This document shows, piece after piece, positions 3,105 to 55,229 of a stretch of DNA of 64,000 nucleotides. Made by a program: the position numbers and the translations under genes. Positions within the stretch are counted from its first letter, which is position 1. The number at the start of each line of letters is the position of its first letter. Source of the stretch: Rubrivivax sp. (GTDB lineage Bacteria; Pseudomonadota; Gammaproteobacteria; Burkholderiales; Burkholderiaceae_C); NCBI GenBank assembly GCA_022842305.1, contig JALHPY010000012.1, forward strand, positions 1-64,000, in the 5' to 3' direction. Under the pieces are notes generated by a model. The model did no database searches and was not told the origin of the DNA. It worked only from the letters and a program-made list of their open reading frames with translations.

Positions 3105-3440
3105 CGCGCCATCCGCTGGCAGCCTGCGGCCGTGCAGACCGAAGTTCCGGCGACGACAGGCGCCGGGTACGGCAGGGGTTCAGTGTCATGGAAGGGGTAT
3201 CCGGGTAAGGGGGCAGGCCGCCCGACGAAGGGATCGTCATCGCGCCGCACACCATCACCCTTCTACGGCTCGGCGCGCGTGCCGTCGGTGCGCTGCCGAA
3301 CGTGGCGGGAGCGCGCGCCCTGCTTGGTTCGGTTCCGTACAGAAAAATGCCTGCCGAGGGACTACAGTTGAAGAGCGCTCAGCGCGATCGGGGATTCTTC
3401 CGCCCGCCAGGCCCCCAACTGGTTTCCACCCGACGTCACC
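3105..3440. other. Divergent intergenic region
   Basis: This 336-bp region separates the reverse glucan-synthase pair from the forward Crp/Fnr gene. I see no convincing gene. It carries a dyad at 3326-3341 (see separate entry) about 100 bp before the regulator start, so it probably holds promoters for both directions. Confidence 0.5.
3326..3341 (+). promoter_or_regulatory. Putative Crp/Fnr-type operator, copy 1
   Basis: GGTTCG-GTTC-CGTACA, followed by GAA. It is one copy of the dyad shared across the window (consensus near TGTTCG-N4-CGNACA) and lies 100 bp before the ATG at 3441, so that regulator gene may be autoregulated or cross-regulated. Confidence 0.4.
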
Positions 3441-4160
3441 ATGGCCACCCCAATGGACCCCCGCAGCAACCACCTGCTCGCCGCTCTGCCCGAAGCCGAA
3501 TGGCAGCGCTGGCTGCCGCTGCTCGAACGCGTGGACATGCCGCTGGGCATGGTGATGTACGAATCGGGGCGGGTGCTCAGCCACGTGTACTTTCCCACCA
3601 CCGCCATCGTCTCGCTGCTGTACGTGATGGAAGACGGCGCCTCGGCCGAGATCGCCGTGGTCGGCAACGAAGGCCTGGTGGGCATCTCCCTGTTCATGGG
3701 CGGGGATTCCACCCCCAGCCGTGCTGTGGTGCAGAGTGCCGGCCAGGGCTGGCGGCTGCGCGCGCGCGCGGTCAAGGACGAGTTCGAGCACACCGGCCCG
3801 GTGATGCACCTGCTGCTGCGCTACACCCAGGCCTTGATCACGCAGATGGCGCAGACCGCCGTGTGCAACCGCCACCACACGCTGGACCAGCAACTGTGCC
3901 GCTGGCTGCTGCTGAGCCTGGACCGCCTGGGTGGCCTGGAGCTGGTGATGACGCAGGAGCTGATCGCCAACATGCTGGGCGTGCGCCGCGAAGGCGTGAC
4001 CGAGGCCGCGCTGCGGCTGCAGAAGAACGGCCTGATCCGCTATGCGCGCGGCCACATCTCGGTGCTTGACCGCCCCGGCCTCGAGAAGCGCACCTGCGAG
4101 TGCTATGCGGTCGTGAAGCGCGAGTACGACCGCCTGCTGCCGGCGCAACTGGCCCGCTGA
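3441..4160 (+). CDS. Crp/Fnr family transcriptional regulator (paralog A)
   Basis: A 239-residue regulator with an N-terminal cyclic-nucleotide-binding-like beta-barrel (HVYFPTTAIVSLL, GNEGLVGISLFMGG) and a C-terminal winged helix with recognition-helix region LGVRREGVTEAALRLQ. It shares with three other proteins here the signatures CNRHH near residue 150 and CECY near the C terminus. No FNR-type N-terminal cysteine cluster is visible, so an oxygen-sensing Fe-S cluster is not indicated; the ligand is unknown. It starts at MATPMDPRSNHLL and is followed by a second Crp/Fnr gene after about 230 bp. A dyad at 3326-3341 suggests auto- or cross-regulation. Confidence 0.9.
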   Translation: MATPMDPRSNHLLAALPEAEWQRWLPLLERVDMPLGMVMYESGRVLSHVYFPTTAIVSLLYVMEDGASAEIAVVGNEGLVGISLFMGGDSTPSRAVVQSAGQGWRLRARAVKDEFEHTGPVMHLLLRYTQALITQMAQTAVCNRHHTLDQQLCRWLLLSLDRLGGLELVMTQELIANMLGVRREGVTEAALRLQKNGLIRYARGHISVLDRPGLEKRTCECYAVVKREYDRLLPAQLAR

Positions 4161-4250
4161 GAGGGCGCGCGCCCGGCCCGGCGTGCCGGGCTGCGCAATG
4201 TCAACCCGGCCTGCCGCGCGGCGGGATATCGACCCGGCCTGCCTTACTTT

Positions 4251-4266
4251 TGTGTGCTTGCGCACA
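4251..4266 (+). promoter_or_regulatory. Putative Crp/Fnr-type operator, copy 2
   Basis: TGTGTG-CTTG-CGCACA followed by GATG; arms match at 5 of 6 positions. It lies 122 bp upstream of the TTG start at 4388 and almost matches the copy at 27358. Confidence 0.45.
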
Positions 4267-4387
4267 GATGCCGCCGCCCTGCAGGCCCAAGCTGACCCCA
4301 GGGCCCAAAGGCGCCTGGCTTCGGTACGGCCCGCTGGGGCGCGGGGCCCGGCGCCACGCCCCGGCGGGCCGCGCACCGGAGACCTTG

Positions 4388-5098
4388 TTGAGCACCCCCC
4401 AGAATCGCCTGATCGAACTGCTTCCCCGTCGCGACCGCGAGCGCCTGCTCGCCTTGTGCGAGCCCTTCCCCCTGGTGCTGAGTGAAGTGTTGTGCGAGGC
4501 CGGCGCGCCGGTGCGCCACGTCTACTTTCCGACCGAGGGCTTCATCTCGCTGGTGGCCCGGGTGGATGATCACCCCGGCCTGGAGGTCGGCATGGTCGGC
4601 CGCGAAGGCATGGTCGGCGCACCGCTGGCGGTGGGCGTGGCCACCTCGCCGATGCGCGCGCTGGTACAGGGCGCAGGCCAGGCCTGGCGCATCGGCGTGA
4701 CGCCGTTCAAGCGCGAACTGGCGGAGAGCCAGGCGCTCAAGCGCCAGCTCGACCGCTACTTCTACGTGCTGATGGCGCAGCTGGTCAGCTCGGCCGGCTG
4801 CCTGCGCTTCCACCTGATCGGCCCGCGCCTGGCGCGCTGGCTGCTGATGACGCAGGACCGCGCCCACAGCGACCAGTTCCACGTCACGCACGAGTTCCTG
4901 GCCTACATGCTGGGCGTGCGCCGCGTCGGCGTCACGGTGGCGGCCGGAGAACTGCAGCGCCAGGGCCTGATCACCTACCACCGCGGCGAACTCACGGTGC
5001 TGGACCGCGCCGGCCTGGAGTCCGCGGCCTGCAGCTGCTACGACGCCGATCGGCGGGTCTACGCGCAGCAGATCGGCGAGACGCCGGCGGCGGACTAG
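4388..5098 (+). CDS. Crp/Fnr family transcriptional regulator (paralog B)
   Basis: A 236-residue regulator of the same subfamily as its upstream neighbour (HVYFPTEGFISLV, GREGMVGAPLAVG, recognition region LGVRRVGVTVAAGELQ, C-terminal CSCY). I place the start at TTG 4388 (MSTPQNRLIELLPRR): GGAGA lies 5 bp upstream and the start aligns with family N termini. A longer in-frame ATG at 4268 would add a basic, low-complexity stretch. The CNRHH signature of the other paralogs is changed to CLRFH and the recognition helix differs from paralogs A and C, so its DNA target may differ. Confidence 0.85.
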   Translation: MSTPQNRLIELLPRRDRERLLALCEPFPLVLSEVLCEAGAPVRHVYFPTEGFISLVARVDDHPGLEVGMVGREGMVGAPLAVGVATSPMRALVQGAGQAWRIGVTPFKRELAESQALKRQLDRYFYVLMAQLVSSAGCLRFHLIGPRLARWLLMTQDRAHSDQFHVTHEFLAYMLGVRRVGVTVAAGELQRQGLITYHRGELTVLDRAGLESAACSCYDADRRVYAQQIGETPAAD

Positions 5099-5104
5099 GC
5101 GCTA

Positions 5105-5383
5105 CTAGGCGCTTTTCATGCCCGCCACGGCGCCGCTGGCGGCGCGCGAGGCTTCCAGCACCGGGCGACCCGAGTACAGGGTGCCCAGTTCCCCGCGACG
5201 GCTGCCGCTGGAGCCGCGCGGCACCAGCGCTTCCCAGGCGCAGCAAGGCGCGACGCAACGGAAACGCCAGGCCGGCCGGAACAGGCTTGCCAGGCGATCG
5301 ATCGGGCGCCGATGTATGCGCTGGACGGCGGCCTGGCACAGCGGGCAGACCAGGGGCGTGAGGGCGGTGGAGCTTGCATTCAT
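5105..5383 (-). CDS. Small cysteine-rich putative zinc-ribbon protein
   Basis: A 92-residue protein starting MNASSTALTPLVCPLC. Paired cysteines CPLC and CVAPCC flank a basic core (RRPIDRLASLFRPAWRFRC), followed by AWEALVPR. The spacing suggests a small zinc ribbon; I recall similar CPxC...RR..DR.....RYRC...C.WE proteins in Burkholderiales, without known function. It is divergent from the diguanylate cyclase gene and its stop lies 6 bp from the stop of the convergent Crp/Fnr gene. A dyad at 5419-5434 sits 36 bp upstream. Confidence 0.7.
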   Translation of the reverse strand: MNASSTALTPLVCPLCQAAVQRIHRRPIDRLASLFRPAWRFRCVAPCCAWEALVPRGSSGSRRGELGTLYSGRPVLEASRAASGAVAGMKSA

Positions 5384-5418
5384 GGTGGTGCAGGATGCGC
5401 CGGCGGCGCGAGCCCATC

Positions 5419-5434
5419 TGTGCGGTGCCCCACA
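5419..5434 (-). promoter_or_regulatory. Putative Crp/Fnr-type operator, copy 3
   Basis: On the reverse strand TGTGGG-GCAC-CGCACA followed by GATG. It lies between the divergent cysteine-rich gene (36 bp) and the diguanylate cyclase gene (116 bp from its ATG). The second distance fits the spacing of other copies. Confidence 0.35.
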
Positions 5435-9785: not shown

Positions 9786-9801
9786 TGTTCGACACCGCAC
9801 A
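9786..9801 (+). promoter_or_regulatory. Putative Crp/Fnr-type operator, copy 4
   Basis: TGTTCG-ACAC-CGCACA followed by GACC, 104 bp upstream of the hybrid kinase ATG and 135 bp upstream of the reverse receiver gene start. One of the clearest copies. Confidence 0.5.
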
Positions 9802-9904
9802 GACCACGACGCGCGACAGGTTCAATGTGACACAGCTTGTGCACGCCGGCTCTGCCTGCGGCCACGCGTGTCGTGCCCGCTTGATCGCCGAATGAAAGCA
9901 TCCC

Positions 9905-11635
9905 ATGAATGACAAGGCCGCGCCCGGCGTAGACGCCGAGGACCGGCGCCAGCGTTCGCTGTTCAAGGCCGGCGCGCTGCAGACCGCCATCCTGAAAAGC
10001 GCCAATTTCTCCAGCATCGCCACCGACGAGCGCGGCGTGATCCAGATCTTCAACGTCGGCGCCGAGCGCATGCTGGGCTATGCCGCGGACGAGGTCATCA
10101 ACCGCGTCACGCCGGCCGATATCTCCGACCCGCAAGAGCTGCTGCTGCGCGCCCAGGCGCTGAGCGCAGAACTGGCCACGCCCATCGCGCCCGGCTTCGA
10201 GGCGCTGGTGTTCAAGGCGCGGCGCGGCATCGAAGACGTGTACGAGCTGACCTACATCCGCAAGGACGGCAGCCGCCAGCCGGCGGTGGTGTCGGTGACG
10301 GCGCTGCAGGACGCGGCCGACGCCATCATCGGCTACCTGCTGATCGGCACCGACAACACCGCCCGGCTGCAGGTCGAAGCCGAACGCAAGCGCCTGGACG
10401 ACGTGCTGCAGGTCAGCCTGCTCGAGCTGCAGCGGGCCAAGGTCGAGGCCGAGCGCGCCAACCTGGCCAAGTCGGACTTTCTGTCGTCGATGAGCCACGA
10501 GCTGCGTTCGCCGCTCAACGCCATCCTCGGCTTTGCCCAGCTGATGGAAAGCGGCACACCGCCGCCCACGCCGGGCCAGCGCGACAGCATCGAGCAGATC
10601 CTCAAGGCCGGCTGGTACCTGCTGGCGCTGATCAACGAGGTGCTGGACCTGGCGCAGATCGAGTCGGGCAAGCTGTCGCTGTCGCCCGAGCCGGTGTCGC
10701 TGACCGAGGTGCTGGCCGACTGCCAGGCGATGATCGAGCCGCAGGCGCAGGCCGGCGGCATACGCCTGTACTTTCCCAAGCTGGACGGGCCCTGGCTGGT
10801 GCGCGCCGACCGCACGCGCGTCAAGCAGGTGCTGGTGAACCTGCTGTCCAACGCCATCAAGTACAACCGCGTCGGCGGCCGGGTCGACCTGCGCTGCAGC
10901 ATGCAGGCCGCTGGCCGCGTGCGCATCAGCCTGCAGGACACCGGCGAAGGCCTGACGCCCGACAAGCTGACGCAGCTGTTCCAGCCCTTCAACCGCCTGG
11001 GCCAGGAGGCCGGCCTGCAAGAGGGCACGGGCATCGGCCTGGTGGTGAGCAAGCAGCTGGTGGAGCTGATGGGCGGCAGCATCGGCGTCGAGAGCACCGC
11101 GGGCGTGGGCAGCGTGTTCTGGATAGATCTTGCAGCCAGCGCCGCGGTGCAGGTGCACACCGAGCCGGCCGGGCCGCCGGCGGCCGTGCCCGTGCAGGTG
11201 CTCAGCGGCCAGCGCATGCGCACGCTGCTGTGCGTGGAAGACAACCCGGCCAACCTGCTGCTGGTAGAGCGCTTGCTGGCGCGCCGCCCCGACCTGCGCC
11301 TGCTGAGCGCGCGCGACGGCCGGCGCGGTGTGGAGATGGCACGCGAGTACCAGCCCGACCTGATCCTGATGGACATCAACCTGCCCGGCATCAATGGCAT
11401 CACCGCGTTGCGCATCCTGGCCGGCGACCCGGCCACGGCACAGATTCCGGTGATCGCGCTCAGCGCCAATGCCATGCCGCACGACATAGAAAAGGGCTTG
11501 CAGGCGGGCTTCTTCCGCTACCTGACCAAGCCCATCAAGGTGGACGAGTTCATGAAAACCCTGGACGCGGCGCTCGCCTTCGCCCAGGCCAAGGCACCGC
11601 AACAAGATGAGGGACAAGACCATGACACTGCCTGA
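9905..11635 (+). CDS. PAS hybrid sensor histidine kinase/receiver
   Basis: A 576-residue soluble hybrid kinase. Domains: PAS (about 28-150, with GVIQIFNVGAERMLGY), coiled linker, HisKA with SMSHELRSPLNAIL and phospho-acceptor H198, HATPase (NLLSNAIKYN, DTGEGL, GTGIGLVVSKQLVELMGG), and a C-terminal receiver with acceptor D490 in LILMDINLPG and K at LTKPIK. No membrane segment is visible. ATG 9905 begins MNDKAAPGVDAEDRR. The gene overlaps the following REC-PAS gene by 14 bp, so the two are translationally coupled and likely share a phosphorelay. A dyad lies 104 bp upstream. Confidence 0.92.
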   Translation: MNDKAAPGVDAEDRRQRSLFKAGALQTAILKSANFSSIATDERGVIQIFNVGAERMLGYAADEVINRVTPADISDPQELLLRAQALSAELATPIAPGFEALVFKARRGIEDVYELTYIRKDGSRQPAVVSVTALQDAADAIIGYLLIGTDNTARLQVEAERKRLDDVLQVSLLELQRAKVEAERANLAKSDFLSSMSHELRSPLNAILGFAQLMESGTPPPTPGQRDSIEQILKAGWYLLALINEVLDLAQIESGKLSLSPEPVSLTEVLADCQAMIEPQAQAGGIRLYFPKLDGPWLVRADRTRVKQVLVNLLSNAIKYNRVGGRVDLRCSMQAAGRVRISLQDTGEGLTPDKLTQLFQPFNRLGQEAGLQEGTGIGLVVSKQLVELMGGSIGVESTAGVGSVFWIDLAASAAVQVHTEPAGPPAAVPVQVLSGQRMRTLLCVEDNPANLLLVERLLARRPDLRLLSARDGRRGVEMAREYQPDLILMDINLPGINGITALRILAGDPATAQIPVIALSANAMPHDIEKGLQAGFFRYLTKPIKVDEFMKTLDAALAFAQAKAPQQDEGQDHDTA

Positions 11636-12467
11636 GGCCGACATCCTGGCCGCGCGCATCCTGATCGTCGATGACCAGGAGGCCAACGTGCGCCTGCTGC
11701 AACGACTGCTGGAAGAAGCCGGCTACAGCGCCATCAGCTCCACCATGGACCCGCTGCAAGTGTGCGCGCTGCACCGCAAGAACGACTACGACCTGATCCT
11801 GCTGGATCTGCAGCTGCCGCGCATGGACGGGTTCCAGGTGATGGCCGCGCTGCGCGTCGGCGCCGCAGACAGCTACCTGCCGGTGATCGTGGTCACCGCC
11901 CAGCCCGGGCACAAGATGCGCGCGCTGCAGTGCGGTGCCCGCGACTTCATCAGCAAGCCCTTCGACCTGCTGGAGGTGAAGACGCGCATCCGCAACATGC
12001 TCGAGGTGCGGCTGCTGTACCGCCAGCTGGAGGCGCACAACCTGCAGCTGGAGCAGAAGATACGCGAACGCACCGCCGAGCTGCGCGAGAGCGAGGCGCG
12101 CTTTCGCAGCCTGACCGAACTGGCGTCCGACTGGTACTGGGAGCAAGACGAGCATGGCACCTTCACCCGCGTTTCGGGGCCGGTGCTCGAGATGCTGGGC
12201 CTGCGTGTCGAGGCGCTGCCCGGGGCGGCCGAGTCCTTGCCGGAGACCGATGCCGACGGCTGGAACGAGGAAGAGCGCAGCGCCCTGCGCGCCGCCATCG
12301 CCGCGCGCCAACCCTTCCTGGACTTCCCGTTCAGCCGCGCCAACCCCGATGGCTCGACCCAGAGCTACCGGGTCAGCGGTGAGCCCATGTTCACGCAGGC
12401 CTGCCGCTTCGTCGGCTACCGCGGCGTCGGCGTCGAGACCACGCCGCGGCCGCCCCTCCGGCGCTAG
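11622..12467 (+). CDS. Response regulator with receiver and PAS domains, no output domain
   Basis: A 281-residue protein: receiver (ILIVDDQEANVRLLQRLL, acceptor D62 in LILLDLQLPRMDG, K in FISKPFDLLE), a coiled linker (about 130-160, LYRQLEAHNLQLEQKIRERT), and a PAS domain (FRSLTELASDWYWEQDEHG). It ends shortly after the PAS domain, although such front halves usually precede a GGDEF, EAL or kinase domain. I chose ATG 11622 because GAGGGA precedes it at good spacing; ATG 11607 in frame is possible. The downstream Crp/Fnr gene starts 12 bp later and may be the operon's transcriptional output. Confidence 0.88.
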   Translation: MTLPEADILAARILIVDDQEANVRLLQRLLEEAGYSAISSTMDPLQVCALHRKNDYDLILLDLQLPRMDGFQVMAALRVGAADSYLPVIVVTAQPGHKMRALQCGARDFISKPFDLLEVKTRIRNMLEVRLLYRQLEAHNLQLEQKIRERTAELRESEARFRSLTELASDWYWEQDEHGTFTRVSGPVLEMLGLRVEALPGAAESLPETDADGWNEEERSALRAAIAARQPFLDFPFSRANPDGSTQSYRVSGEPMFTQACRFVGYRGVGVETTPRPPLRR

Positions 12468-12479: not shown

Positions 12480-13259
12480 ATGGCCCTCTCCCGCCACAGC
12501 CCCAACCAGAACCACCTGCTGGCCGCCCTGCCGCAGGCCGAGTTCGAACTGCTCGAGCCGCAGCTGGAACTGGTGCCGCTGCGCCTGGGCGAAATGGTCT
12601 ACGAGCCTGGCCAGCGGCTGCCGTTCGCCTACTTTCCCACCAGCGCCGTGGTCTCGCTGTACTACGTCACCGAAAGCGGCGCGGCGGCCGAATCAGCCGG
12701 CGTGGGCAACGAAGGCATGGTGGGCATCGCGCTCATCATGGGCGGCGGCTCCATGCCCAGTTCGGCCGTGGTGCAGACCGCCGGCCACGCCTACCGGCTG
12801 GAGCGCCAGCGCCTGCAGCAGGCCTTTGAGCGCGCCGGCATGCTGCAGGGCCTGCTGCTGCGCTATACCCAGGCGCTGCTCACGCAGATGTCGCAGACCG
12901 CGGCCTGCAACCGCCACCATTCGGTGGAGCAGCAGCTCAGCCGCTGGCTGCTGCTGACGCTGGACCGCGGCCCCGAGCGCGAACTGGTCATCACGCAGGA
13001 ACTGGTGGCCGGCATGCTGGGCGTGCGCCGCGAAAGCGTGACCGAGGCCGCCGGCCGGCTGAAGGAGCAGGGCTACATCCGCTACCGCCGCGGCCACATC
13101 ACGGTGCTTGACCCCGAAGGGCTGCAGACGCGCGCCTGCGAGTGCTATGCCGTGGTCAGGGACGAGCTGGCGCGGCTGCTGTTCAGCGAACGCTACCGCC
13201 AGGACGCCCTGCCGGGGCGTGCAGGCGGCGAGCCGCAGGTTCAGCACCTGACGCCCTGA
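12480..13259 (+). CDS. Crp/Fnr family transcriptional regulator (paralog C)
   Basis: A 259-residue regulator starting MALSRHSPNQNHLLAALPQ. It has the barrel domain (FAYFPTSAVVSLYYV, GNEGMVGIALIMGGG), CNRHH, winged helix LGVRRESVTEAAGRLKEQG, and CECY. It is closest to paralog A by eye. It lies 12 bp after the REC-PAS gene and is probably in the same operon, linking the phosphorelay to transcription. Compared with paralog A it carries about 20 extra C-terminal residues (ERYRQDALPGRAGG...) that overlap the convergent PEP-CTERM gene by 77 bp. Confidence 0.9.
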   Translation: MALSRHSPNQNHLLAALPQAEFELLEPQLELVPLRLGEMVYEPGQRLPFAYFPTSAVVSLYYVTESGAAAESAGVGNEGMVGIALIMGGGSMPSSAVVQTAGHAYRLERQRLQQAFERAGMLQGLLLRYTQALLTQMSQTAACNRHHSVEQQLSRWLLLTLDRGPERELVITQELVAGMLGVRRESVTEAAGRLKEQGYIRYRRGHITVLDPEGLQTRACECYAVVRDELARLLFSERYRQDALPGRAGGEPQVQHLTP

Positions 13260-14269: not shown

Positions 14270-14285
14270 CGTGCGCCAGCACACA
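14270..14285 (+). promoter_or_regulatory. Putative Crp/Fnr-type operator, copy 6
   Basis: CGTGCG-CCAG-CACACA followed by GACC, 126 bp before the ice-binding-like gene start at 14411. Together with copy 5 it gives each divergent gene its own correctly oriented site. Confidence 0.42.
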
Positions 14286-14410
14286 GACCGCGCACGCAGC
14301 TTCCCTCAAATTGAAGGCCCTTGGTGCGGCAGCGCACGAGGCCATTCCGGATGTGGCCGCCTGGCGCGGTGCTGCACAGGCCCGACCGCCCACCAATGAC
14401 GAGGCACTCC

Positions 14411-15385
14411 ATGCAATCGAAGAACACACTCTCTCTGCTGGCGCTGGCCGCCAGCGCCGCGCTGGCCGCCGTGCCGGCATGGGCCGCGCCCATCCTGCTG
14501 GGTTCCAATCTGGCCAGCTTCACCGTGCTGGGCGCGCAGACCGTCACCAACATCGGCGCCACCACCATCGTGGGCAATCTGGGCGTCTCGCCCGGTACGG
14601 CCATCACCGGCGCCGGCACCATCAGCCTGACCGGCACCGTGCATGCCACCGACGCCGTTGCCTCGCTGGCGCAGTCGGAACTGGTCACCGCCATCAGCGA
14701 CCTGAATGCACTGGGTGACGGATTCCTGCTGGCGTCCGACCTGACGCTGGCCGGCACGCTGCTGCCGGGCGTGTACCGCGTGCCGGCGGGCACCACCAAC
14801 CTGTCGGGCGCGCTCACGCTGGACGGTGGCGGCGACGCCGATGCGGCCTGGGTCTTCCAGATGGAAAGCGCGCTGATCACATCGCCCAACTCGGCCATCA
14901 ACATCATGAGCACCGGCGCCGGCGCGGCGGTGTACTGGAACGTGCGCAGCTCGGCCACGCTGGACACCAACACCGCCTTCCTGGGCAACATCCTGGCGCT
15001 GACCAGCATCAGCATGAACACCGGTGCCACCAACCTGTGCGGCCGCGTGCTGGCCAGCACCGGCGCCGTGACGCTGCAGAACAACAGCCTGTCGGGCGTC
15101 TGCACCGGCCTGCTGGCCGACAGCAACGGCCTGGGCGGCACTGACACCGGCACTGACACCGGCACGGGCACCGGTGGCACCGGTGGCACCGGTGGCACCG
15201 GTGGCACCGGTGGTACTGGCGGCACAGGTGGTACCGGCGGCACCGGCGGTACCGGTGGTACCGGTGGTACCGACACCGGCGGCGGCACCTCCCAGGGCGT
15301 GCCCGAGCCCGGCACGCTGGCCCTGATGCTGACCGGCCTGCTGGCCTTGCCTTTCGTCCGCCGGCCTGCACGCCGGCGCCCTTGA
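14411..15385 (+). CDS. Ice-binding-like (DUF3494) protein with PEP-CTERM anchor
   Basis: A 324-residue exported protein. Signal peptide (MQSKNTLSLLALAASAALAAVPAWA); a DUF3494 ice-binding-like beta-solenoid domain (SFTVLGAQTVTNIGATTIVGNLGVSPG, LAGTLLPGVYRV, AAWVFQMES, AVYWNVRSSATL, TFLGN-type motif AFLGNILAL, GRVLAS); a Gly-Gly-Thr repeat linker of about ten units; and a C-terminal VPEPGTLALMLTGLLALPFVRR exosortase signal. GAGG lies 6 bp before ATG 14411. Members bind ice or act as adhesins at the surface; ice binding here is inferred only. The next gene carries a second DUF3494 domain. Confidence 0.88.
   Translation: MQSKNTLSLLALAASAALAAVPAWAAPILLGSNLASFTVLGAQTVTNIGATTIVGNLGVSPGTAITGAGTISLTGTVHATDAVASLAQSELVTAISDLNALGDGFLLASDLTLAGTLLPGVYRVPAGTTNLSGALTLDGGGDADAAWVFQMESALITSPNSAINIMSTGAGAAVYWNVRSSATLDTNTAFLGNILALTSISMNTGATNLCGRVLASTGAVTLQNNSLSGVCTGLLADSNGLGGTDTGTDTGTGTGGTGGTGGTGGTGGTGGTGGTGGTGGTGGTGGTDTGGGTSQGVPEPGTLALMLTGLLALPFVRRPARRRP
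15172..15271 (+). repeat. Tandem Gly-Gly-Thr codon repeat (9-bp unit)
   Basis: About ten imperfect copies of GGTGGCACC, in frame, coding the flexible linker between the DUF3494 domain and the PEP-CTERM anchor. Unit variants (GGT/GGC, ACC/ACT/ACA) show some age. Such arrays can change length by slippage, altering how far the domain projects from the surface. Confidence 0.85.
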
Positions 15386-15392: not shown

Positions 15393-15408
15393 GGTTCGCC
15401 AGCGAACA
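15393..15408 (+). promoter_or_regulatory. Putative Crp/Fnr-type operator, copy 7
   Basis: GGTTCG-CCAG-CGAACA followed by GACC, 92 bp before the ATG at 15500. Arms are complementary at 5 of 6 positions. It lies right after the stop of the upstream ice-binding gene, so the lipoprotein gene probably has its own promoter. Confidence 0.5.
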
Positions 15409-15499
15409 GACCCGTTTCGACCCGCCCCCTAAAAACCCCCACTTGCTGACGGCACATTGCCCTCAGCCCCTCACCGCGGGAAACCCGCCAGGAGCCCCC

Positions 15500-17344
15500 A
15501 TGAATCTGCCAGTCCGAACTTCCAACGCCGGTGCCGCACTCGCGGCCGTGCTGCTGTCAGCGCTGCTCGCTGCCTGCGGCGGCGACAAGCTTGACCCGGT
15601 GCTGGGCTCGCCCGCCTTCGGCGTGGCCCCTACCGTGACCGTGACCACCCCGGCCACCACTCCGGTGGCCAGCGGGGTGGCCACCAACAGCACCGTCACC
15701 GCCCGCTTCAGCAAGCCCATGGCAGCGGCCAGCATCACGCCCGCGAGCTTCACGCTGGCCTGCCCGGCCGGTACCGCCACCGCCGCCAGCGTGGTCTATG
15801 TCGAAGCGACCCAGACCGCCACGCTGACGCCCAACGCGGTGTTGCCAGTCAATACGCTCTGCACCGCCACCATCAGCACCGCAGTGCGTGACAGCGGTGG
15901 CATTCCCCTGGCCAACGCCTACGTGTGGACTTTCCAGACCGCGCCGCTGGCCGACACCACGCGACCCACCGTCACGCTCAACACCCCGGCCCTGGGCGCG
16001 GTGGGCGTCAGCATCAACAGCAGGGTGGTCGCCACCTTCAGTGAAGACATGAACCCGGCCACGCTGACGGCTGCCAGCTTCACGCTGACCAACACCACCC
16101 TGGGCGCGCCCGTTGCCGGCAGCGTGGCCTATGCCCCCGCGGGCCGCACCGCCACCTTCACGCCCGCCGCTGCGCTGGCCGCCAACAGCCTGTTCACGGC
16201 CACCGTGACCACCGCCGCCACCGACAGCGCCGGCAACGCGCTGGCCGCCAACCATGTGTGGACCTTCACCACCGGCGCCACGCCCGACGCCGTGGCGCCC
16301 ACCGTGGCCACCATCAGCCCGGCCATCGCCAGCACCGGCGTCTGCCTGACGCGCAGCGTGACCGCCAGCTTCAGCGAAGCCATGGACGCCGCCACCATCA
16401 CCAGCACCAGCTTCACCGTCACCGACGGTGGCGTGGCCGTGCCCGGCAGCGTGAGCTACGACGCCGCCACCCGCCTGGCCAGCTTCGTGCCCACGGCAGC
16501 CGCCGGCTTTGCCGCCAGCAGGCCGCTGGTGGCCACCGTCAGGTCAGGCGCCACCGGCGTCACCGACCTGGCCGGAAACCCCCTGGCCGCTGACCAGATC
16601 TGGAACTTCACCACCGGCGCCTCGGCCTGCGCGGCTGGCGTCAACCTGCGCAGCGCAGCGGCCTTCGGTGCCTTCGGCGGTGCCGCCGGCGTCACCAACC
16701 AGGGCATCAACACCGTGGTCGGCGGCAACCTGGGCAGCACGGCAGCCTGCACGCTGATCACCGGCCTGCACGACGCGGCCAATGTCTACACCGAGACCCC
16801 GCTGAACATCGGTGGCGTCAACGGCAGCATCTACTGCGCGCCGCCGGCACCGGGCACCACCACCACGCTGGCCATCGCCACCCAGGCGCGCGCCGACGCG
16901 CAGACGGCCTACAACGAACTCGCCGCGCTGCCCCCCGGCCTCGACCCCGGCGCCGGCCAGCTGGGCGGGCTGGTGCTGGCCGCCGGCACCTACACCTCGG
17001 CGGGTGGCACCTTCGCCATCACCTCGGGTGACCTGACGCTGGACGCCCAGGGCGACAGCAACGCCGTCTTCGTGTTCCAGAGTGCCTCGGCGCTGACCGT
17101 GGGCCAGTTGGCCACGCCGCGCCGCGTGTTGCTGGTCGGCGGCGCCCAGGCCCGCAATGTGTTCTGGCAGGTGGGCAGCGCGGCCCGCATCGAGGACGGC
17201 AGCACCATGGTCGGCACCATCATCGCGCCGGCCGGCGTGACCATCTCGACCGCCGGGCAGACCGCCCAGACCACCCTGATCGGGCGCGCCATCGGCCTGA
17301 CCGCGTCGGTGACGATGGTCAACACCACGGTGACCGCACCGTGA
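15500..17344 (+). CDS. Lipoprotein with three Ig-like (Big_5) domains and DUF3494 domain
   Basis: A 614-residue protein with lipoprotein signal ending LLAAC (C26), three bacterial Ig-like Big_5 repeats (each with SVTASFSEAM-like strands and an ending such as HVWTFTTGA / QIWNFTTGA at about 50-155, 160-260, 265-375), then a DUF3494 ice-binding-like domain (TNQGINTVVGGNLG, LTLDAQGDSNAVFVFQ, NVFWQVGSAARIEDGSTMVGTIIAP, GRAIGLTASVTM). It is likely displayed on the outer membrane. GGAG lies just upstream of ATG 15500. Together with the PEP-CTERM paralog upstream this gives two anchoring routes for the same domain type. The stop overlaps no gene; an OmpA protein follows. Confidence 0.88.
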   Translation: MNLPVRTSNAGAALAAVLLSALLAACGGDKLDPVLGSPAFGVAPTVTVTTPATTPVASGVATNSTVTARFSKPMAAASITPASFTLACPAGTATAASVVYVEATQTATLTPNAVLPVNTLCTATISTAVRDSGGIPLANAYVWTFQTAPLADTTRPTVTLNTPALGAVGVSINSRVVATFSEDMNPATLTAASFTLTNTTLGAPVAGSVAYAPAGRTATFTPAAALAANSLFTATVTTAATDSAGNALAANHVWTFTTGATPDAVAPTVATISPAIASTGVCLTRSVTASFSEAMDAATITSTSFTVTDGGVAVPGSVSYDAATRLASFVPTAAAGFAASRPLVATVRSGATGVTDLAGNPLAADQIWNFTTGASACAAGVNLRSAAAFGAFGGAAGVTNQGINTVVGGNLGSTAACTLITGLHDAANVYTETPLNIGGVNGSIYCAPPAPGTTTTLAIATQARADAQTAYNELAALPPGLDPGAGQLGGLVLAAGTYTSAGGTFAITSGDLTLDAQGDSNAVFVFQSASALTVGQLATPRRVLLVGGAQARNVFWQVGSAARIEDGSTMVGTIIAPAGVTISTAGQTAQTTLIGRAIGLTASVTMVNTTVTAP

Positions 17345-24383: not shown

Positions 24384-24471
24384 GAAGTGCTCTCCGAGAT
24401 TGCCTTTGAGTATCCCGAGCAGATTGACCAGGACTTGAGGACGCATACTTGCGCCACAGATAGGCAGCGTC

Positions 24472-24487
24472 TGTGCGACCGCACACA
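24472..24487 (-). promoter_or_regulatory. Putative Crp/Fnr-type operator, copy 8
   Basis: Reverse strand TGTGTG-CGGT-CGCACA followed by GACG, 89 bp before the glsB-like start. Nearly symmetric and matching the copies at 4251 and 27358. Confidence 0.5.
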
Positions 24488-48843: not shown

Positions 48844-49527
48844 TCAGCTGGCACCTTCGCGCGCCAGCACCACGTGCACCGTCTTCATCAGGATGCGCAG
48901 GTCGAGCCAGGCCGTGCGCTTCTCGACGTAATGCTTGTCGAAGGCCACGCGCTGCGCGTAGCTCAGCGTGTTGCGGCCGCTCACCTGCCACAGGCCGGTG
49001 ATGCCGGGACGCACGCTCAGGTAATGCCAGCGTGCCGGGCCGTAGCGCGTGAGTTCGCCCACGGTAATGGGGCGGGGGCCGACCAGGCTCATCTCGCCGC
49101 GCAGGACATTGATCAGCTGAGGCAATTCGTCCAGGCTGGTGCGGCGCAGAAAGTTGCCCACGGGCGTGATGCGCGGGTCGTTGGACAGCTTCTGGTCGCG
49201 CTCCCATTCGGCACGGGCCTGCGGATTGCTCGCCAGCAATGCCGCCAGCACCGGCTCGGAATCGCGCAGCATGGTGCGGAACTTCATGCAACGGAACATC
49301 CGGCCGTCGTGGCCCACGCGGTAGTGGCCGAAGAAGATCGGTGCGCCGTCACGACGCCAGATCAGGAAGGCCACCAGTCCCATCACCGGTGACAGCAGCA
49401 CCAGCAGCAGCAAGGCCAGCACCTGGTTCAGCAGCAGGTTGTCCGGATTGACCAAGGTGCCCAGGGCACCCTGGCCCTGGCCCTGGCGCACGCTTGATGC
49501 GCCCGCCACATAGGCTTCGGCGTTCAT
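48844..49527 (-). CDS. Undecaprenyl-phosphate sugar phosphotransferase (bacterial sugar transferase)
   Basis: A 227-residue priming transferase: one membrane segment (LLLNQVLALLLLVLLSPVMGLVAFLIW), then the sugar-transferase core PIFFGHYRVGHDGRMFRCMKFRTM, LSNDPRITPVGNFLRRTSLDELPQLINVLRGEMSLVGPRP and GITGLWQVSGRNTLSY, with the conserved D-E-P and R-P motifs. It starts repeat-unit synthesis by loading a hexose-1-phosphate on undecaprenyl phosphate. It is the short (one-helix) form, without the N-terminal CoA-binding region of EpsB/WcaJ. It heads the reverse operon of seven genes. Confidence 0.9.
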   Translation of the reverse strand: MNAEAYVAGASSVRQGQGQGALGTLVNPDNLLLNQVLALLLLVLLSPVMGLVAFLIWRRDGAPIFFGHYRVGHDGRMFRCMKFRTMLRDSEPVLAALLASNPQARAEWERDQKLSNDPRITPVGNFLRRTSLDELPQLINVLRGEMSLVGPRPITVGELTRYGPARWHYLSVRPGITGLWQVSGRNTLSYAQRVAFDKHYVEKRTAWLDLRILMKTVHVVLAREGAS

Positions 49528-49874
49528 CGATGCGGCCCCGGCTGCAGGCGCAACAGGCCTGCGGCCTGGCCACGGCGCGTTGGCACGGCCTGGGTCTGGT
49601 CAAAGCGGAATGCTCCACACCCCGAACGGCGGGCTGGGCTGTGATGGGCAAAGGACTGCATGGCAGGTCTCACTGGTTTGAAACGGCAACACCGGGACTC
49701 GGCGCCACTCTTCGTCTGAACCAAGACTAAGGTTCGTGTTGATGACGGGTCCGTTCGTTGCCGTACGCTGCACTGCAGCATGGGCGATCCGATGCCGCGG
49801 CGACGGCCTCTGGTCCTACGCCCGTTCGTGGGCAGGCGCACAGAAGCGCTGCCGAAGTGGGCAAGCCGTGGCGG
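49528..49874. other. Region upstream of the reverse eps operon
   Basis: About 350 bp with no supported gene. It holds a dyad at 49752-49767 oriented to the eps operon and a weaker one at 49827-49842 (CGTGGG-CAGG-CGCACA). Expected to include the promoter of the reverse seven-gene operon. Confidence 0.5.
49752..49767 (-). promoter_or_regulatory. Putative Crp/Fnr-type operator, copy 12
   Basis: Reverse strand CGTACG-GCAA-CGAACG followed by GACC, 225 bp before the sugar transferase start at 49527. The flanking GACC fits, while the outer bases differ from the best copies. Confidence 0.35.
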
Positions 49875-50436: not shown

Positions 50437-50776
50437 GGTGAACTCCTGGCAGGTGGAGGGCCGCGCCGCGGCCCGGAAGAATCGGGGGAGGATGGAGCGT
50501 GCGCCGTGCCTCGAAGCAGGGGCAGCCTTCATCACTTGAGCTTCTGCAGGACGGGGGGACTCCTGTTCGCGCCGGCAAGGGCTGCACGCACTGGCCGCGT
50601 GGCCTGCGGATGCGATGGAGGCGCCAGATCCGCGGCTTCGTCGCGCTGAAGTCGCGAAAGTTACGCGGGGGCCTTGGCGGAGTCTGTACGTTGGCGTACT
50701 GGCAAGGCGTGCCGCAGATCGCGGCGGGCGCGCCGCAGCGGGAGCGCCAGGCACGACTTCAGCACCGGCGCAGACG
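50437..50776. other. Intergenic region
   Basis: 340 bp between the Met-rich lipoprotein start and the end of the fourth Crp/Fnr gene. No supported gene. Contains a dyad at 50685-50700 and a lone TGTTCG half-site near 50564. Confidence 0.45.
50685..50700 (-). promoter_or_regulatory. Putative Crp/Fnr-type operator, copy 13
   Basis: Reverse strand AGTACG-CCAA-CGTACA followed by GACT, arms complementary in 5 of 6 positions, 249 bp upstream of the Met-rich lipoprotein. Confidence 0.35.
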
Positions 50777-51559
50777 TTACGCAGGGCGAGCCCGGCCCGA
50801 CCTGCGCGGCGGCCTTGGCAGGAGCCTGTCGCATTCGCGCCTGACCACCGCATAGCACTCGCAACTGGCCGCTTCCAGGGCCGTGCGGTCCAGCAGCCTG
50901 ATCCGGCCTTCCTGATACTGGATGGCGCCGGTGGCCTGCACGGCGGCCGCGACGGGGGTGACTTCGTCGCTCCTGACGCCCAGCATCTTGGCAATCAGCG
51001 TCTGCGACATCACCATGTCATCCGCGCCCAGGCGGTCGAAGCTCATCAGCAGCCATCGGCAGAATTGCTGGTCGAGGGTGTGGTGGCGATTGCAGGCAGC
51101 GGTCTGTGTCATCTGCGTCAGCAAGGCCTGCGTGTACATCAGCAGCAAGCGCAAGGTGGGCCCGCCGCCAGCGACCTCGGCCACCAGTGCCTGGGCCGGC
51201 ATGCGCCAGGCCTTGCCGGCGCTTTGAACCACGGCCCGGATGGTCGTGGAATTGCCACCCATGAGCACGGTGACCCCCAGCACACCGTCGTTGCCGACCA
51301 GCGCGATCTCCGCCGACTCACCGTTGTGCATCACGTACAGCAGCGACACGATGGCGGTCAGGGGAAAGTAGACGTGCTCGAGATGGCTCCCGGGCTCGAA
51401 GACGACCTGCCCCAGCTGCATGTCCACCAGCTGCAGCTGGGGTTGCCAGCGCCGCAGATTCGCCGGCGTCATCGCCGCGAGGATGTGGTTGGCCAGCAGT
51501 CCGTCGGGGCTTGTCGGGGCAGAGGCTTCGAGCGTGGCTTGCGCAGGGGCTTCGTGCAT
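50777..51559 (-). CDS. Crp/Fnr family transcriptional regulator (paralog D)
   Basis: A 260-residue regulator of the same subfamily: HVYFPLTAIVSLLYVMHNG, GNDGVLGVTVLMGGN, CNRHHTLDQQFCRWLL, CECY, and winged-helix region LGVRSDEVTPVAAAVQATG. Its recognition helix (RSDEVTPVA) departs from paralogs A and C (RREGVTEAA, RRESVTEAA), so its DNA target may differ. I chose ATG 51559 (MHEAPAQATLEAS), 9 bp after AGGAG; in-frame ATGs at 51568 and 51580 lack spacing. It is divergent from the degenerate hemerythrin gene, with dyads for each direction between them. Confidence 0.87.
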   Translation of the reverse strand: MHEAPAQATLEASAPTSPDGLLANHILAAMTPANLRRWQPQLQLVDMQLGQVVFEPGSHLEHVYFPLTAIVSLLYVMHNGESAEIALVGNDGVLGVTVLMGGNSTTIRAVVQSAGKAWRMPAQALVAEVAGGGPTLRLLLMYTQALLTQMTQTAACNRHHTLDQQFCRWLLMSFDRLGADDMVMSQTLIAKMLGVRSDEVTPVAAAVQATGAIQYQEGRIRLLDRTALEAASCECYAVVRRECDRLLPRPPRRSGRARPA

Positions 51560-51605
51560 GTTGGACATCTCCTGGCCCATCCTCGAGCGGCCCGCTCCTG
51601 CGGTC

Positions 51606-51621
51606 TGTGCGCTGCGCGACG
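51606..51621 (-). promoter_or_regulatory. Putative Crp/Fnr-type operator, copy 14 (half-strong)
   Basis: Reverse strand CGTCGC-GCAG-CGCACA followed by GACC. Right arm and flank are perfect, left arm poor. It lies 47 bp before the paralog D start. Confidence 0.3.
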
Positions 51622-51657: not shown

Positions 51658-51673
51658 CGTGCGAGACCGCACA
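51658..51673 (+). promoter_or_regulatory. Putative Crp/Fnr-type operator, copy 15
   Basis: CGTGCG-AGAC-CGCACA followed by GACC, 100 bp before the hemerythrin-like start at 51773. Confidence 0.48.
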
Positions 51674-51772
51674 GACCACCCCGCTGCCGGGCCCTACGGT
51701 TCACGTCTCATGATCGGCACGAGACGTCGGCAGTTCCGGCGTTTGACAGGCTGGTCGCCGACAGGAGTTCAA

Positions 51773-52291
51773 ATGCCCACTCCACAGCGTTCGCCAGGGC
51801 TTGCCGTGACCAGCGCACGGACCGTCGCGCCGCACAAGCCTCCACCGAACTCCAAGGACGCGATCGCCATGCTCAGGGCCGCACACGAGGCGCTGGGCCA
51901 CCTGTTTGCGGAGTACGGCAACACCTACTCGCTGGGCAACAAGAAGGCGCTGGTCGCCGAACTCTGCACCGCCCTGAGCGTGCATGCGCAGATCGCCGAA
52001 GAGATCTTCTATCCCGCCGTGAACGGCGCGCTCAAGGACGAGCGGATCGCGCCCGGCTACACGGTCGGGAACGCCGCGGTCAAGGACCTGATCGCGCAAC
52101 TCGAAGGCGCAGAGCCCGATGGCGCGCCCTACGACGCCAAGGTCAAGGCGCTGTCGGAGCGCGTGAAGCAACACGTCAGGGCGGAACAGCGCGAGATCTT
52201 CCCGAAGGCCAGGGCCAGCGCACTGGACCTGGTCGAGCTCGGCGCACGCATGGCGGCGCGCCGGCACGGCCTGCTGGCCCACCGATGGTGA
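51773..52291 (+). CDS. Degenerate hemerythrin-like protein
   Basis: A 172-residue paralog of the hemerythrin at 26670-27155, with the same NKKALVAE, EEIFYPAV, VKDLIAQLEGAEPDG and ELGARMAAR blocks. Aligned by eye, several likely diiron ligands are changed: HxxxE becomes H71-xxx-A75, H89 becomes N100, H119 becomes R130, H122 becomes Q133 and E126 becomes A137; H38, H71 and H134 remain. It may bind one metal, none, or act as a structural partner. AGGAG lies 6 bp before ATG 51773. Divergent from Crp/Fnr paralog D. Confidence 0.85.
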   Translation: MPTPQRSPGLAVTSARTVAPHKPPPNSKDAIAMLRAAHEALGHLFAEYGNTYSLGNKKALVAELCTALSVHAQIAEEIFYPAVNGALKDERIAPGYTVGNAAVKDLIAQLEGAEPDGAPYDAKVKALSERVKQHVRAEQREIFPKARASALDLVELGARMAARRHGLLAHRW

Positions 52292-53088: not shown

Positions 53089-54234
53089 TCAGTCCTGCAG
53101 GAACGACAGCAGCGCAGCGTTGAACGCCTGCGCATGCGACACGTTCAAGCCGTGCGGCGCACCGCTCACCTTGACCAGCTGGCTTTGCGGCACGGCCCGG
53201 TGGGTGCGCAGGCCCGAGCTTGCGAAAGGCACGATCGCGTCCGCATCGCCATGGATCACCAGCGTGGGCAGCCTCACCCGCTGCAGGTCGGCGCGGAAGT
53301 CGGTCGTGCCGAAAGAGTCCATGCAGGCCAGCGCAGCATGCGGCGCCGACTGGTGGCACAGGGCAATGGCCTCGGCGCGCTGCGCCTGGCTCACCTGCAG
53401 CACACCATTTGCCGAGAAGAAGTCGGTGGTGAACTGCTCGAAGAAGGCGCTGCGGTCCTGCTCCAGCGCCTGCTTCTTGGCTTGTGCGCCCTCGGCCGTG
53501 CGCGGGCCTTCGGGGTTGTCGGCCGTCTTCATCAGGTACGGCGGCACCGCCGCGGCAAACACCACGCTGTGCAGGCGCGACTCACCGTATTGGGTAAGGT
53601 AGCGCGCCACTTCGCCGCCGCCCATCGAGAAGCCCACCAGCGTCACGTCCTGCAGCCCGCACTGGTCCATGACGCGCTGCAGATCTTCGGCCAGGGTGTC
53701 GTAGCCATAGCCCGATTCCGGCTTGTCCGAGCGCCCGAAGCCGCGCCGGTCGTAAGCCACCACGCGGTAGCCGGCGGCGCGCAGCACCGAGACCTGCGGC
53801 GCCCAGGCCTGGGCAGACAGCGGCCAGCCATGGATCAGCACCACCGGCCGGCCGCTGCCGCCGCTGTCTTCGATGTGCAGCTTCACGGCTGCGGTGGCCG
53901 CCGCGTCGCTGTTGCCCGAATCCTGCTGGTCCGCCATGGTTCCTGCGGCGGCACCGCCCAGTGCGCCGGCAACGGCGCCCAGCGTGGCCCCGACCAGCAC
54001 GCCCACCGGGCCGGCCGCCACGACGCCGATGGCGGCGCCCGTGGCGGCACCAGCCACCATGCCGCCCCCCATCAACACCGACTGGGCCTCGCGCTCGGCC
54101 TCGGCGGGCTCCAGCGGCATCTGTGCCCCGGACGTGGGGTCCTGCGACGGAATGCCGTGGCCGGGGCGGGCCTGTTCCGCCAGGTCTTCATTGACCGGGG
54201 CGGCGTTGGGCGGTGCGATGACGATGGGGCTCAT
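53089..54234 (-). CDS. Glycine-zipper / alpha-beta hydrolase fusion protein
   Basis: A 381-residue fusion. Residues ~1-120 hold an acidic start and a glycine-zipper hairpin (MVAGAATGAAIGVVAAGPVG, VGATLGAVAGALGGAAAG). Residues ~120-381 form an alpha/beta hydrolase of the chloroperoxidase/haloperoxidase-like group: VVLIHGWPLSAQAW, YDRRGFGRSDKP, nucleophile GFSMGG (S203), IHGDADAIVP (D330/D332) and APHGLN (H361). The zipper would attach the enzyme to a membrane. The same two modules occur as separate overlapping genes at 22826-24071. A dyad lies 113 bp upstream. Confidence 0.88.
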   Translation of the reverse strand: MSPIVIAPPNAAPVNEDLAEQARPGHGIPSQDPTSGAQMPLEPAEAEREAQSVLMGGGMVAGAATGAAIGVVAAGPVGVLVGATLGAVAGALGGAAAGTMADQQDSGNSDAAATAAVKLHIEDSGGSGRPVVLIHGWPLSAQAWAPQVSVLRAAGYRVVAYDRRGFGRSDKPESGYGYDTLAEDLQRVMDQCGLQDVTLVGFSMGGGEVARYLTQYGESRLHSVVFAAAVPPYLMKTADNPEGPRTAEGAQAKKQALEQDRSAFFEQFTTDFFSANGVLQVSQAQRAEAIALCHQSAPHAALACMDSFGTTDFRADLQRVRLPTLVIHGDADAIVPFASSGLRTHRAVPQSQLVKVSGAPHGLNVSHAQAFNAALLSFLQD

Positions 54235-54346
54235 GGGGCTCTCCTGATGGGGGTGACGATGGGCCGGGCACGGGGCTCGCGCCCTGTGCCGGCGCGGCGC
54301 TGCCTGCACGCTGAGAGGGATGCTGGCTGGCAGGCGCCAGCGGGTC

Positions 54347-54362
54347 TGTTCTTCAGCGCACG
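54347..54362 (-). promoter_or_regulatory. Putative Crp/Fnr-type operator, copy 16
   Basis: Reverse strand CGTGCG-CTGA-AGAACA followed by GACC, 113 bp before the hydrolase fusion start at 54234. Confidence 0.42.
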
Positions 54363-54417
54363 GACCCGGACAGCCCTCACGGGAACTCACCGCCACGCCC
54401 CGATGAGCCCGTGCCCA

Positions 54418-54433
54418 TGTTAGAAAGCGAACA
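54418..54433 (+). promoter_or_regulatory. Putative Crp/Fnr-type operator, copy 17
   Basis: TGTTAG-AAAG-CGAACA followed by GACG, 157 bp before ATG 54590 (109 bp before an alternative GTG start at 54542). Confidence 0.42.
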
Positions 54434-54589
54434 GACGCAAGCTCTGTCACGACTTAGAAGAGACTTGCCCAGCATCCGAGGCAACCGCCTGCATGACCGC
54501 CGCCCGTTCACCGGACTTCATGGAAGCCGCCATCACAGCCCGTGCGCCTGATCGCCCCTGCGGGCCCGACCGTTGAGGTCCGAGCGGCC

Positions 54590-55180
54590 ATGACCTGCAC
54601 GCGCAAGGGTACCGGTGTGGCTTCGGCGCTCGTCCTGGGCAGTTGCTTGTTCGTCGGCGCCTGCACCACGCTGCTGCCCAGCTCCCGAACCGAGGTCGTG
54701 TCGGACTGGAACAGCTACGAAGATGCCGTGAAGTCCCTGGCCACGATGACGCCGTACACGGCCACTCGGCAGAGCGTGCATGCGCAGGGCCTGGACCCGA
54801 ACAGCAATGCGGCCATCACGGTGCTGCACTTCGCCGACGTGCTGCAACGCTTTGCCGCCGCCACCTTGATCAAGCCCGAGGATGTCGACCCGGGCATTCG
54901 CGACTGCCTGCGCGCCGGCAAGCGATGCAGCGGCTACGCCATCGCCGTCGAGAAGCTCCATCGGCGGCGCATCGGCAACTTCTGGCTCGACTCCCTGAAC
55001 TTCCGGCGCGAAACCGTGACCACCGGCTGGCGGGTGGACGTGCTGCTGGTCTTCGTGGACGACGCGCTGGTGTACCAGTTGGTCGGCGGGCGGCCCACCA
55101 TCAGCGAAGTGGACCTGCGGCGCAATCCGCTGGGGCCGCTGCAGGGCTGGGGCAGCCAGACGCTGCAGTTGATCCCGTAG
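54590..55180 (+). CDS. Lipoprotein of unknown function
   Basis: A 196-residue protein with lipoprotein signal MTCTRKGTGVASALVLGSCL ending FVGAC (C25). The mature part has TEVVSDWNSYEDAVKSLATMTPYTATR, two cysteines (DCLRAGKRCSGY) that may pair, and a VDVLLVFVDDALVYQLVGG strand region. I do not recognise a family. A GTG at 54542 would add 16 residues before the signal. It lies 160 bp before the ybhP-like gene and is preceded by a dyad. Confidence 0.72.
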   Translation: MTCTRKGTGVASALVLGSCLFVGACTTLLPSSRTEVVSDWNSYEDAVKSLATMTPYTATRQSVHAQGLDPNSNAAITVLHFADVLQRFAAATLIKPEDVDPGIRDCLRAGKRCSGYAIAVEKLHRRRIGNFWLDSLNFRRETVTTGWRVDVLLVFVDDALVYQLVGGRPTISEVDLRRNPLGPLQGWGSQTLQLIP

Positions 55181-55213
55181 GGCCGGGCGCGAGCCAGTGC
55201 ATTTCGACTGGTG

Positions 55214-55229
55214 AGTTCGACAGCGTACA
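55214..55229 (+). promoter_or_regulatory. Putative Crp/Fnr-type operator, copy 18
   Basis: AGTTCG-ACAG-CGTACA followed by GCC, 112 bp before the ybhP-like ATG at 55341. The centre ACAG is shared with the copy at 27358. Confidence 0.42.

Follow-up and report, generated by a model that had tools for sequence, protein, structure and literature searches.

An intergenic dyad repeated across a Rubrivivax genome: candidate class II promoters of an uncharacterised Crp/Fnr subfamily

Introduction

What reads the many copies of one short dyad that lie between the genes of a Rubrivivax contig? The question is raised by a stretch of 64,000 nucleotides from Rubrivivax sp. (assembly GCA_022842305.1, contig JALHPY010000012.1, positions 1 to 64,000; the window), which encodes four Crp/Fnr genes, here called A, B, C and D. 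A preliminary description of the window had picked out 18 intergenic copies of a dyad, TGTTCG-N4-CGNACA, most of them followed by GAC, and had linked them to these paralogs as a candidate regulon. The analysis presented here suggests that the copies are, with high probability, class II promoters of one regulon, activated by paralogs of one uncharacterised Crp/Fnr subfamily.

A genome-wide intergenic dyad

All 18 copies are present where they had been placed, and all lie outside gene models; two further copies scoring above 16 had been missed, at 3284 (minus strand) and 36008 (plus strand). With a site matrix and a cut-off of 16 or more, 22 of 22 matches in the window are intergenic, two of them being the other-strand reading of listed sites, in a window whose intergenic share is 14.1% (9,011 of 64,000 bases). 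Because this matrix was trained on the preliminary picks themselves, weight is placed on independent tests, namely a core pattern, a genome scan and the -10 box.

The core pattern, GTNNG-N4-CGNACAGAC (equivalent to GTNNGNNNNCGNACAGAC), was compared with the same pattern reversed. It occurs nine times in the window, against a mean of 0.075 under a first-order Markov background and none for the reversed pattern. Across the 5.19-Mb genome there are 33 matches against one, of which 31 are aimed at a same-strand downstream gene. Hit density is not equal inside and between genes, as all 33 are intergenic. What had been described as a window-wide set is genome-wide, and the window, at 1.2% of the genome, is its hotspot (9 of the 33 exact matches). 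Matrix matches above 16 were also counted in 20 fetched stretches totalling 337 kb (19 surrounding sites elsewhere in the genome, plus the end of the contig that carries the window), which hold 48 intergenic and two coding matches, a palindrome possibly counting on both strands. None was found in a 400-kb control, which is biased low because it was drawn from contigs without an exact core match.

The dyad is therefore real, while its fourth base is not fixed. In an alignment of 61 non-overlapping intergenic sites scoring above 16 (20 in the window and 41 outside), this base is T in 25, G in 23, A in eight and C in five, giving an arm consensus of TGTNCG and a 16-bp dyad TGTNCG-N4-CGNACA. The strict TGTTCG form was rejected as a consensus, as it is found in only four places in the window, one of which (1873) is coding and has no GAC.

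Promoter anatomy

Beyond the dyad and GAC, the strongest signals in the 199 aligned bases shown are an A at position 39 (47 of 61 sites) and a T at position 43 (43 of 61), followed, far more weakly, by T at -1 and G at 44. The hexamer NANNNT stands at offset 38 in 40 of the 61 sites, compared with a mean of 1.5 across 69 other offsets tested, and does so both in the window (14 of 20) and outside it (26 of 41). A further nine sites carry it at offset 39 only. When the sites are read from the other strand, the box is seen in 2 of 61.

The idea that GAC gives the sites a direction holds: as oriented, 59 of 60 sites have their next gene on their own strand, against 34 of 59 when flipped. If T43 is taken as -7, the dyad is centred at -41.5 and GAC occupies -33 to -31, the position of GAC in a TTGACA -35 element (the consensus) with a 17-base spacer. 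The direction noticed in the preliminary description would thus arise because GAC falls inside the -35 region. This element is otherwise poor, with bases 15-20 reading CAGACN against TTGACA.

On predicted starts, the layout is that of a class II site: the dyad centre falls at -41.5, and the -10 box keeps a set distance from it (offset 38 for 40 of 61 sites here and 111 of 146 at other loci, see below). The composite, TGTNCG-N4-CGNACAGAC-N18-NANNNT, is very probably a class II, Crp/Fnr-type activated promoter, with binding, activation and class II contacts predicted from sequence. The GAC within a class II -35 region, the -10 box at fixed spacing and the occurrence of the composite beyond Burkholderiales are all additions to the preliminary description.

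The sites in the window and the genes beside them are as follows.

3260..3302, minus: dyad with GAC, the unlisted copy at 3284, score above 16; TAGAAG at the -10 offset is no match
3326..3368, plus: composite before Crp/Fnr gene A, -10 TACAGT
3453..4160, plus: Crp/Fnr gene A, HTH_Crp_2, helix VRREGVTEAA
4251..4293, plus: composite before Crp/Fnr gene B, -10 CAAGCT
4388..5098, plus: Crp/Fnr gene B, diverged helix VRRVGVT
5392..5434, minus: composite, -10 CATCCT
9786..9828, plus: composite before the kinase/receiver/Crp-D operon, -10 CAATGT
9905..11635, plus: PAS-histidine kinase-receiver hybrid (domain scan)
11622..12467, plus: receiver-PAS protein, no DNA-binding domain found (domain scan)
12480..13259, plus: Crp/Fnr gene D, helix VRRESVTEAA
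14210..14252, minus: dyad with GAC; CCAGCA at the -10 offset, no -10; no convincing target gene
14270..14312, plus: composite before an ice-binding-like gene, -10 CAAATT
14411..15385, plus: target, ice-binding-like protein (domain scan)
15393..15435, plus: dyad with GAC before the second ice-binding-like gene; TAAAAA at the -10 offset is no match
15500..17344, plus: target, Big_5/ice-binding-like protein (domain scan)
24445..24487, minus: composite before a GlsB-like gene, -10 AAGTAT
24114..24446, minus: target, transglycosylase-associated (GlsB-like) protein; by inspection, true start probably near 24386
27358..27400, plus: composite before a histidine kinase gene, -10 GATGAT
27499..28635, plus: target, histidine kinase, N-terminus RsbRD_N-like (21.8 bits, below the 24.3 cut-off)
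31464..31506, plus: perfect dyad before an EpsL-like gene, -10 GAGCAT
31824..33053, plus: target, EpsL-like protein of an XrtB/PEP-CTERM polysaccharide locus (171 bits, below the 275 cut-off)
35828..35870, plus: dyad with GAC before an EpsF-like gene; ATTGCC at the -10 offset, no -10
36008..36050, plus: weaker composite before the EpsF-like gene, unlisted, score above 16, -10 CAGACT
36193..37566, plus: target, EpsF-like chain-length determinant (354.3 bits, below the 422.75 cut-off)
49725..49767, minus: dyad before a sugar transferase gene; TTAGTC at the -10 offset, no -10
48844..49527, minus: target, bacterial sugar transferase (domain scan)
50658..50700, minus: composite, -10 TAACTT
51579..51621, minus: weaker composite before Crp/Fnr gene C, -10 GAGGAT
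50777..51580, minus: Crp/Fnr gene C, diverged helix VRSDEVT, possibly starting a few codons later
51658..51700, plus: composite before a hemerythrin-like gene, -10 TACGGT
51869..52291, plus: target, hemerythrin-like protein (domain scan)
54320..54362, minus: composite before an alpha/beta hydrolase gene, -10 CAGCAT
53089..54234, minus: target, alpha/beta hydrolase (domain scan)
54418..54460, plus: dyad with GAC before gene 54590-55180, for which no family was found; TAGAAG at the -10 offset is no match
55214..55256, plus: composite before YbhP-like and PLD genes, -10 CATGCT
55341..57325, plus: targets, endonuclease/exonuclease/phosphatase (YbhP-like) and PLD-domain proteins (domain scan)

The strong minus-strand site at 14210-14252 faces a region (13260-14203) with no convincing gene, which may hold a small RNA or an overlooked short gene. 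Separately from this finding, an RHH_8 regulator lies beside a polyhydroxybutyrate (PHB)-depolymerase-type esterase at 29732-31384 of the window.

Conservation in other genomes

Relatives of D were collected at 80 loci from named genomes, the best 80 of 183 qualifying stretches, with record titles that include Rubrivivax, Rhodocyclales, Rhodoferax, Polaromonas, Methylotenera, Gallionella, Methylobacter, Cellvibrio, Sedimenticola and Cupriavidus. Sites scoring above 17 number 146 in 63 of these loci, against two matches for the reversed matrix. The -10 box stands at offset 38 in 111 of the 146 (mean 6.2 elsewhere) and at offset 39 only in 17 more; all 14 sites from loci below 50% guanine plus cytosine (GC) have it at offset 38. 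The composite is found again near D orthologs of Beta- and Gammaproteobacteria, well beyond Burkholderiales. Two of the loci (L163 and L174) are titled as Bordetella parapertussis and Klebsiella pneumoniae metagenome-assembled genomes, taxon labels that look wrong.

The operon headed by the PAS-kinase gene is also a recurrent target. A crude open reading frame rule, which found no frame for 40 of 207 sites, placed this kinase in the largest downstream cluster (22 sites at 21 loci, counting this genome; one further member was scanned). A plus-strand site lies 2.3-4.5 kb upstream of D in 31 of the 66 loci with enough flank, and a minus-strand site in 14. Sites immediately upstream of D are found in only 12 of 80 loci, a low count that is to be anticipated if D ends its operon.

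Conservation at orthologous promoters was likewise seen for A, as a site above 14 lies upstream of A orthologs in 23 of 29 loci from relatives, against none of 29 with the reversed matrix. The -10 box is at offset 38 in 13 of these 23 and at 39 only in seven. Fourteen of the 23 (among loci L085-L113) carry ACATAC where others have ACAGAC. GAC was rejected as part of the dyad, as it is one-sided and replaced by TAC in these 14.

Numerous near-palindromic intergenic copies, some of them paired, could also be expected of a dispersed repeat or structural element with no promoter function. This explanation was rejected and seems scarcely credible, since the aligned flanks are conserved only at the -10 box, at a single offset, site direction tracks gene direction, and the composite is also found in distant genera and low-GC genomes.

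The Crp/Fnr paralogs

All four proteins of the window score above cut-off for HTH_Crp_2. The Pfam cNMP_binding model passes its cut-off in C and D, with A and B below it (24.4 and 23.1 against 27.5), and no NCBIfam model reaches its cut-off for A-D. The genome holds seven paralogs, of which five (A, D and three outside the window) keep a recognition helix of the form RRE-x-(V/I)T; it is altered in B (RRV) and C (SDE), and given these changes not every paralog need bind the dyad. Sites precede five of the seven: A, B, C, D (via the kinase/receiver/Crp operon) and a copy on contig 125, whose site is without a -10 box at the offset.

In the D family, represented by an alignment of 74 sequences (seven of the 80 loci were dropped), the helix is near invariant, with both Arg residues and the Thr fully so. 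Also invariant in 74 of 74 are Cys143, which lies in the near-invariant motif CNRHH, and Cys220, Glu221, Cys222 and Tyr223. Cys143 and the near-C-terminal CECY (residues 220-223) could form a metal or redox sensor. These cysteines and the kinase-receiver pair of the D operon may serve as leads on the signal only.

An AlphaFold model of D has a confident Crp fold, with an effector-binding beta-barrel and a dimer helix (predicted local distance difference test, pLDDT, 86.5), and its closest solved structures are mycobacterial CRP, GlxR, FNR and NtcA. Searches of PDB sequences gave NtcA as the best match of the profile (43 bits) and DNR as that of the single sequence (30.5 bits).

The Cupriavidus loci stand apart within the family. 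At ten of them (L180, L181, L184-L190 and L192), the helix has Ser for Glu, and sites occur at 0.34 per 10 kb compared with 1.82 in the 63 loci with Glu. The operator has possibly shifted in this single lineage, for which nothing firm was found.

Co-occurrence of sites and regulators

If the subfamily reads the dyad, sites and regulators should be found in the same genomes. Among 147 relatives, with the A subfamily called at E up to 1e-10, the 71 positive genomes contain 470 matches to the core and 110 to its reversal, while the 76 negative genomes contain 82 and 91. The contrast is repeated within one genus, with 380 against 67 in 45 positive genomes and 35 against 32 in 35 negative ones. More paralog copies go with more sites (Spearman 0.75, and 0.84 for the 80 genomes within the genus). 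In a class-wide sample of 231 genomes, with the D family called at E up to 1e-30, 28 positive genomes have 111 matches against 30 reversed and 203 negative genomes 113 against 216.

A conserved upstream box with a -10 element at fixed spacing is also what a two-box promoter of an alternative, extracytoplasmic function (ECF) sigma factor would present. Judged by site layout and Crp/Fnr copy number, it is very improbable here: the 16-bp dyad that forms the upstream part extends to about -49, the -10 is an ordinary NANNNT, and the number of sites tracks that of Crp/Fnr copies.

A somewhat less remote, still improbable, explanation is that a different regulator binds the dyad and merely travels with the Crp/Fnr cluster, such as the LuxR-type response regulator at 8631. 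Co-inheritance is possible, given how closely regulators, kinases and targets are grouped here, and a few subfamily-negative genomes have a core surplus. The LuxR-type protein, the one rival regulator tested, was rejected as the driver, as core matches are at background where it is present and Crp absent (24 against 20 in 16 genomes); where Crp is present and LuxR absent, there are 148 against 44 (31 genomes). No DNA-binding domain was found in the receiver protein of the D operon, the 16-bp dyad centred at -41.5 has Crp-family class II geometry, and five of the seven Crp paralogs are themselves preceded by sites.

Several observations weigh against promoters driven by the Crp/Fnr subfamily. 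NANNNT is missing at offset 38 from 21 of the 61 sites in this genome and at both 38 and 39 from 12, and no site was seen upstream of the paralogs on contigs 44 and 52. Among the relatives, 7 of 71 positive genomes hold no core match or one, 8 of 76 negative genomes hold four or more, and when 13 negative genomes with several matches were searched by profile, a subfamily fragment was recovered in one only. The sampled genomes are also related, so that P values for co-occurrence are too small; the contrast nonetheless holds within one genus.

In three genomes (G100, G111 and G250), a core surplus (5:0, 7:1 and 6:0 against the control) was seen with no subfamily member detected.

That the dyad is bound by dimers of this Crp/Fnr subfamily we infer from the co-occurrence of regulator and site. 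The link between regulon and paralogs suggested by the preliminary description is well supported by the place and direction of the sites, by the anatomy of the promoters, and by conservation and co-occurrence, with binding itself a prediction. In the proposed mechanism, a Crp/Fnr-family dimer would sit on the dyad with its centre at about -41.5, the trailing GAC would act as the GAC of a degenerate -35, and the -10 box (NANNNT) would follow 18 bases further. Direct contact between activator and RNA polymerase would compensate for the poor -35. The activators would be the subfamily paralogs, with A, D and the three outside the window as those that keep the helix, and since five of seven paralogs lie behind such a site, the circuit would feed back on itself. 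Its output would be a stress, envelope and surface programme.

Target genes

In the window, the candidate targets comprise A, B, C and the D operon, the two ice-binding-like proteins, the GlsB-like protein, the histidine kinase, the hemerythrin-like protein, the hydrolase and the YbhP-like/PLD pair, as well as the EpsL- and EpsF-like proteins and sugar transferase of the XrtB-type polysaccharide locus. Outside it, 30 of 36 target genes were scanned, and seven had no family. Among the targets are OsmC, alternative oxidase, OmpA, PRC-barrel, PLD, BrkB-like, MlaE, AsmA and haem oxygenase proteins, together with two transglutaminases, a cation ATPase, DUF2231 and DUF3096 proteins, two receivers and a GGDEF-EAL protein. 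Catalase, NfeD and a PEP-CTERM protein are less certain, since some 300 bases or more separate their sites from the start codon. In other genomes, target clusters recur with BON-domain (eight loci) and CsbD-like (four loci) members, one of each having been scanned; the CsbD-like member scores 38.1 bits, just under the cut-off of 40. To judge by gene names, the targets make up what looks like a programme for stress, envelope and surface functions.

Relation to known systems

The CRP/Clp consensus is TGTGA-N6-TCACA, and the CRP recognition helix begins with Arg-Glu and has a third contact Arg. The present system resembles it in having a 16-bp dyad that starts with TGT and ends with ACA, and Arg-Glu at the helix start. 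It differs at dyad bases 5 and 12, which are C and G in place of A and T (base 5 is A in 2 of 61 sites and base 12 is T in none of 61), and in having Glu in 69 of 74 D-family sequences at the position of the third contact Arg. FNR has N-terminal Cys residues for an iron-sulphur cluster, whereas the first Cys of D is residue 143.

The closest parallel in layout is offered by cyanobacterial NtcA, also of the Crp family. As described in the accessible text of PMC3898017 and PMC9430850, NtcA-activated promoters carry GTAN8TAC near -41.5 (or -40.5), about 22 nt from a TAN3T -10 box, and are class II. The GT-N10-AC dyad, the spacing and the class II layout are shared. Unlike in NtcA promoters, the A and T of GTA/TAC are unconserved here (base 4 is A in 8 of 61 sites, base 13 is T in 8 of 61), CG/CG lies further in, ACAGAC overlaps the -35, and the organisms and targets are others. 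Nor do the proteins fall in the NtcA family, as C and D score 20.6 bits against a cut-off of 244.95 and no NtcA match is listed for A and B.

Other parallels concern function. Bcam1349 (exopolysaccharide) and DPR-1/DPR-2 (catabolic operons) are cyclic di-GMP-responsive CRP/FNR proteins, similar, on the descriptions given, in the type of control, and the available portions of PMC3584217 and PMC8547461 give no binding consensus for them. The PEP-CTERM gene of a floc-forming Aquincola strain is likewise a surface gene under dedicated control, RpoN-dependent according to the accessible part of PMC9850573; sigma-54 acts there, unlike the sigma-70-type -10 seen here.

Among the matches listed in a search of the open-access literature, with subscription papers and regulon databases outside it, no description of the site, regulon or subfamily was found. 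The motif strings returned only a primer table among the matches listed, and otherwise nothing bacterial by title. The site is described in none of the accessible parts of PMC3584217, PMC5343134, PMC8547461, PMC9430850, PMC6716667 and PMC3898017, and PMC5343134 mentions neither Crp nor Fnr.

Implications

Tentatively, and with more doubt than confidence, a wider picture can be drawn, in which a general stress and biofilm programme is governed, across much of Beta- and Gammaproteobacteria, by a subfamily with invariant CECY and near-invariant CNRHH acting via one class II code. Lineages would expand it through extra copies of both paralogs and sites, with a new kind of input coming from the linked kinase-receiver pair or from the Cys/His residues.

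The promoter code would let candidate targets of a widespread subfamily be read directly from genomes. One switch would tie exopolysaccharide, PEP-CTERM and ice-binding proteins to OsmC, alternative oxidase and probably catalase. The system would also be a natural example in which to study the possible sharing of one operator by several paralogs.

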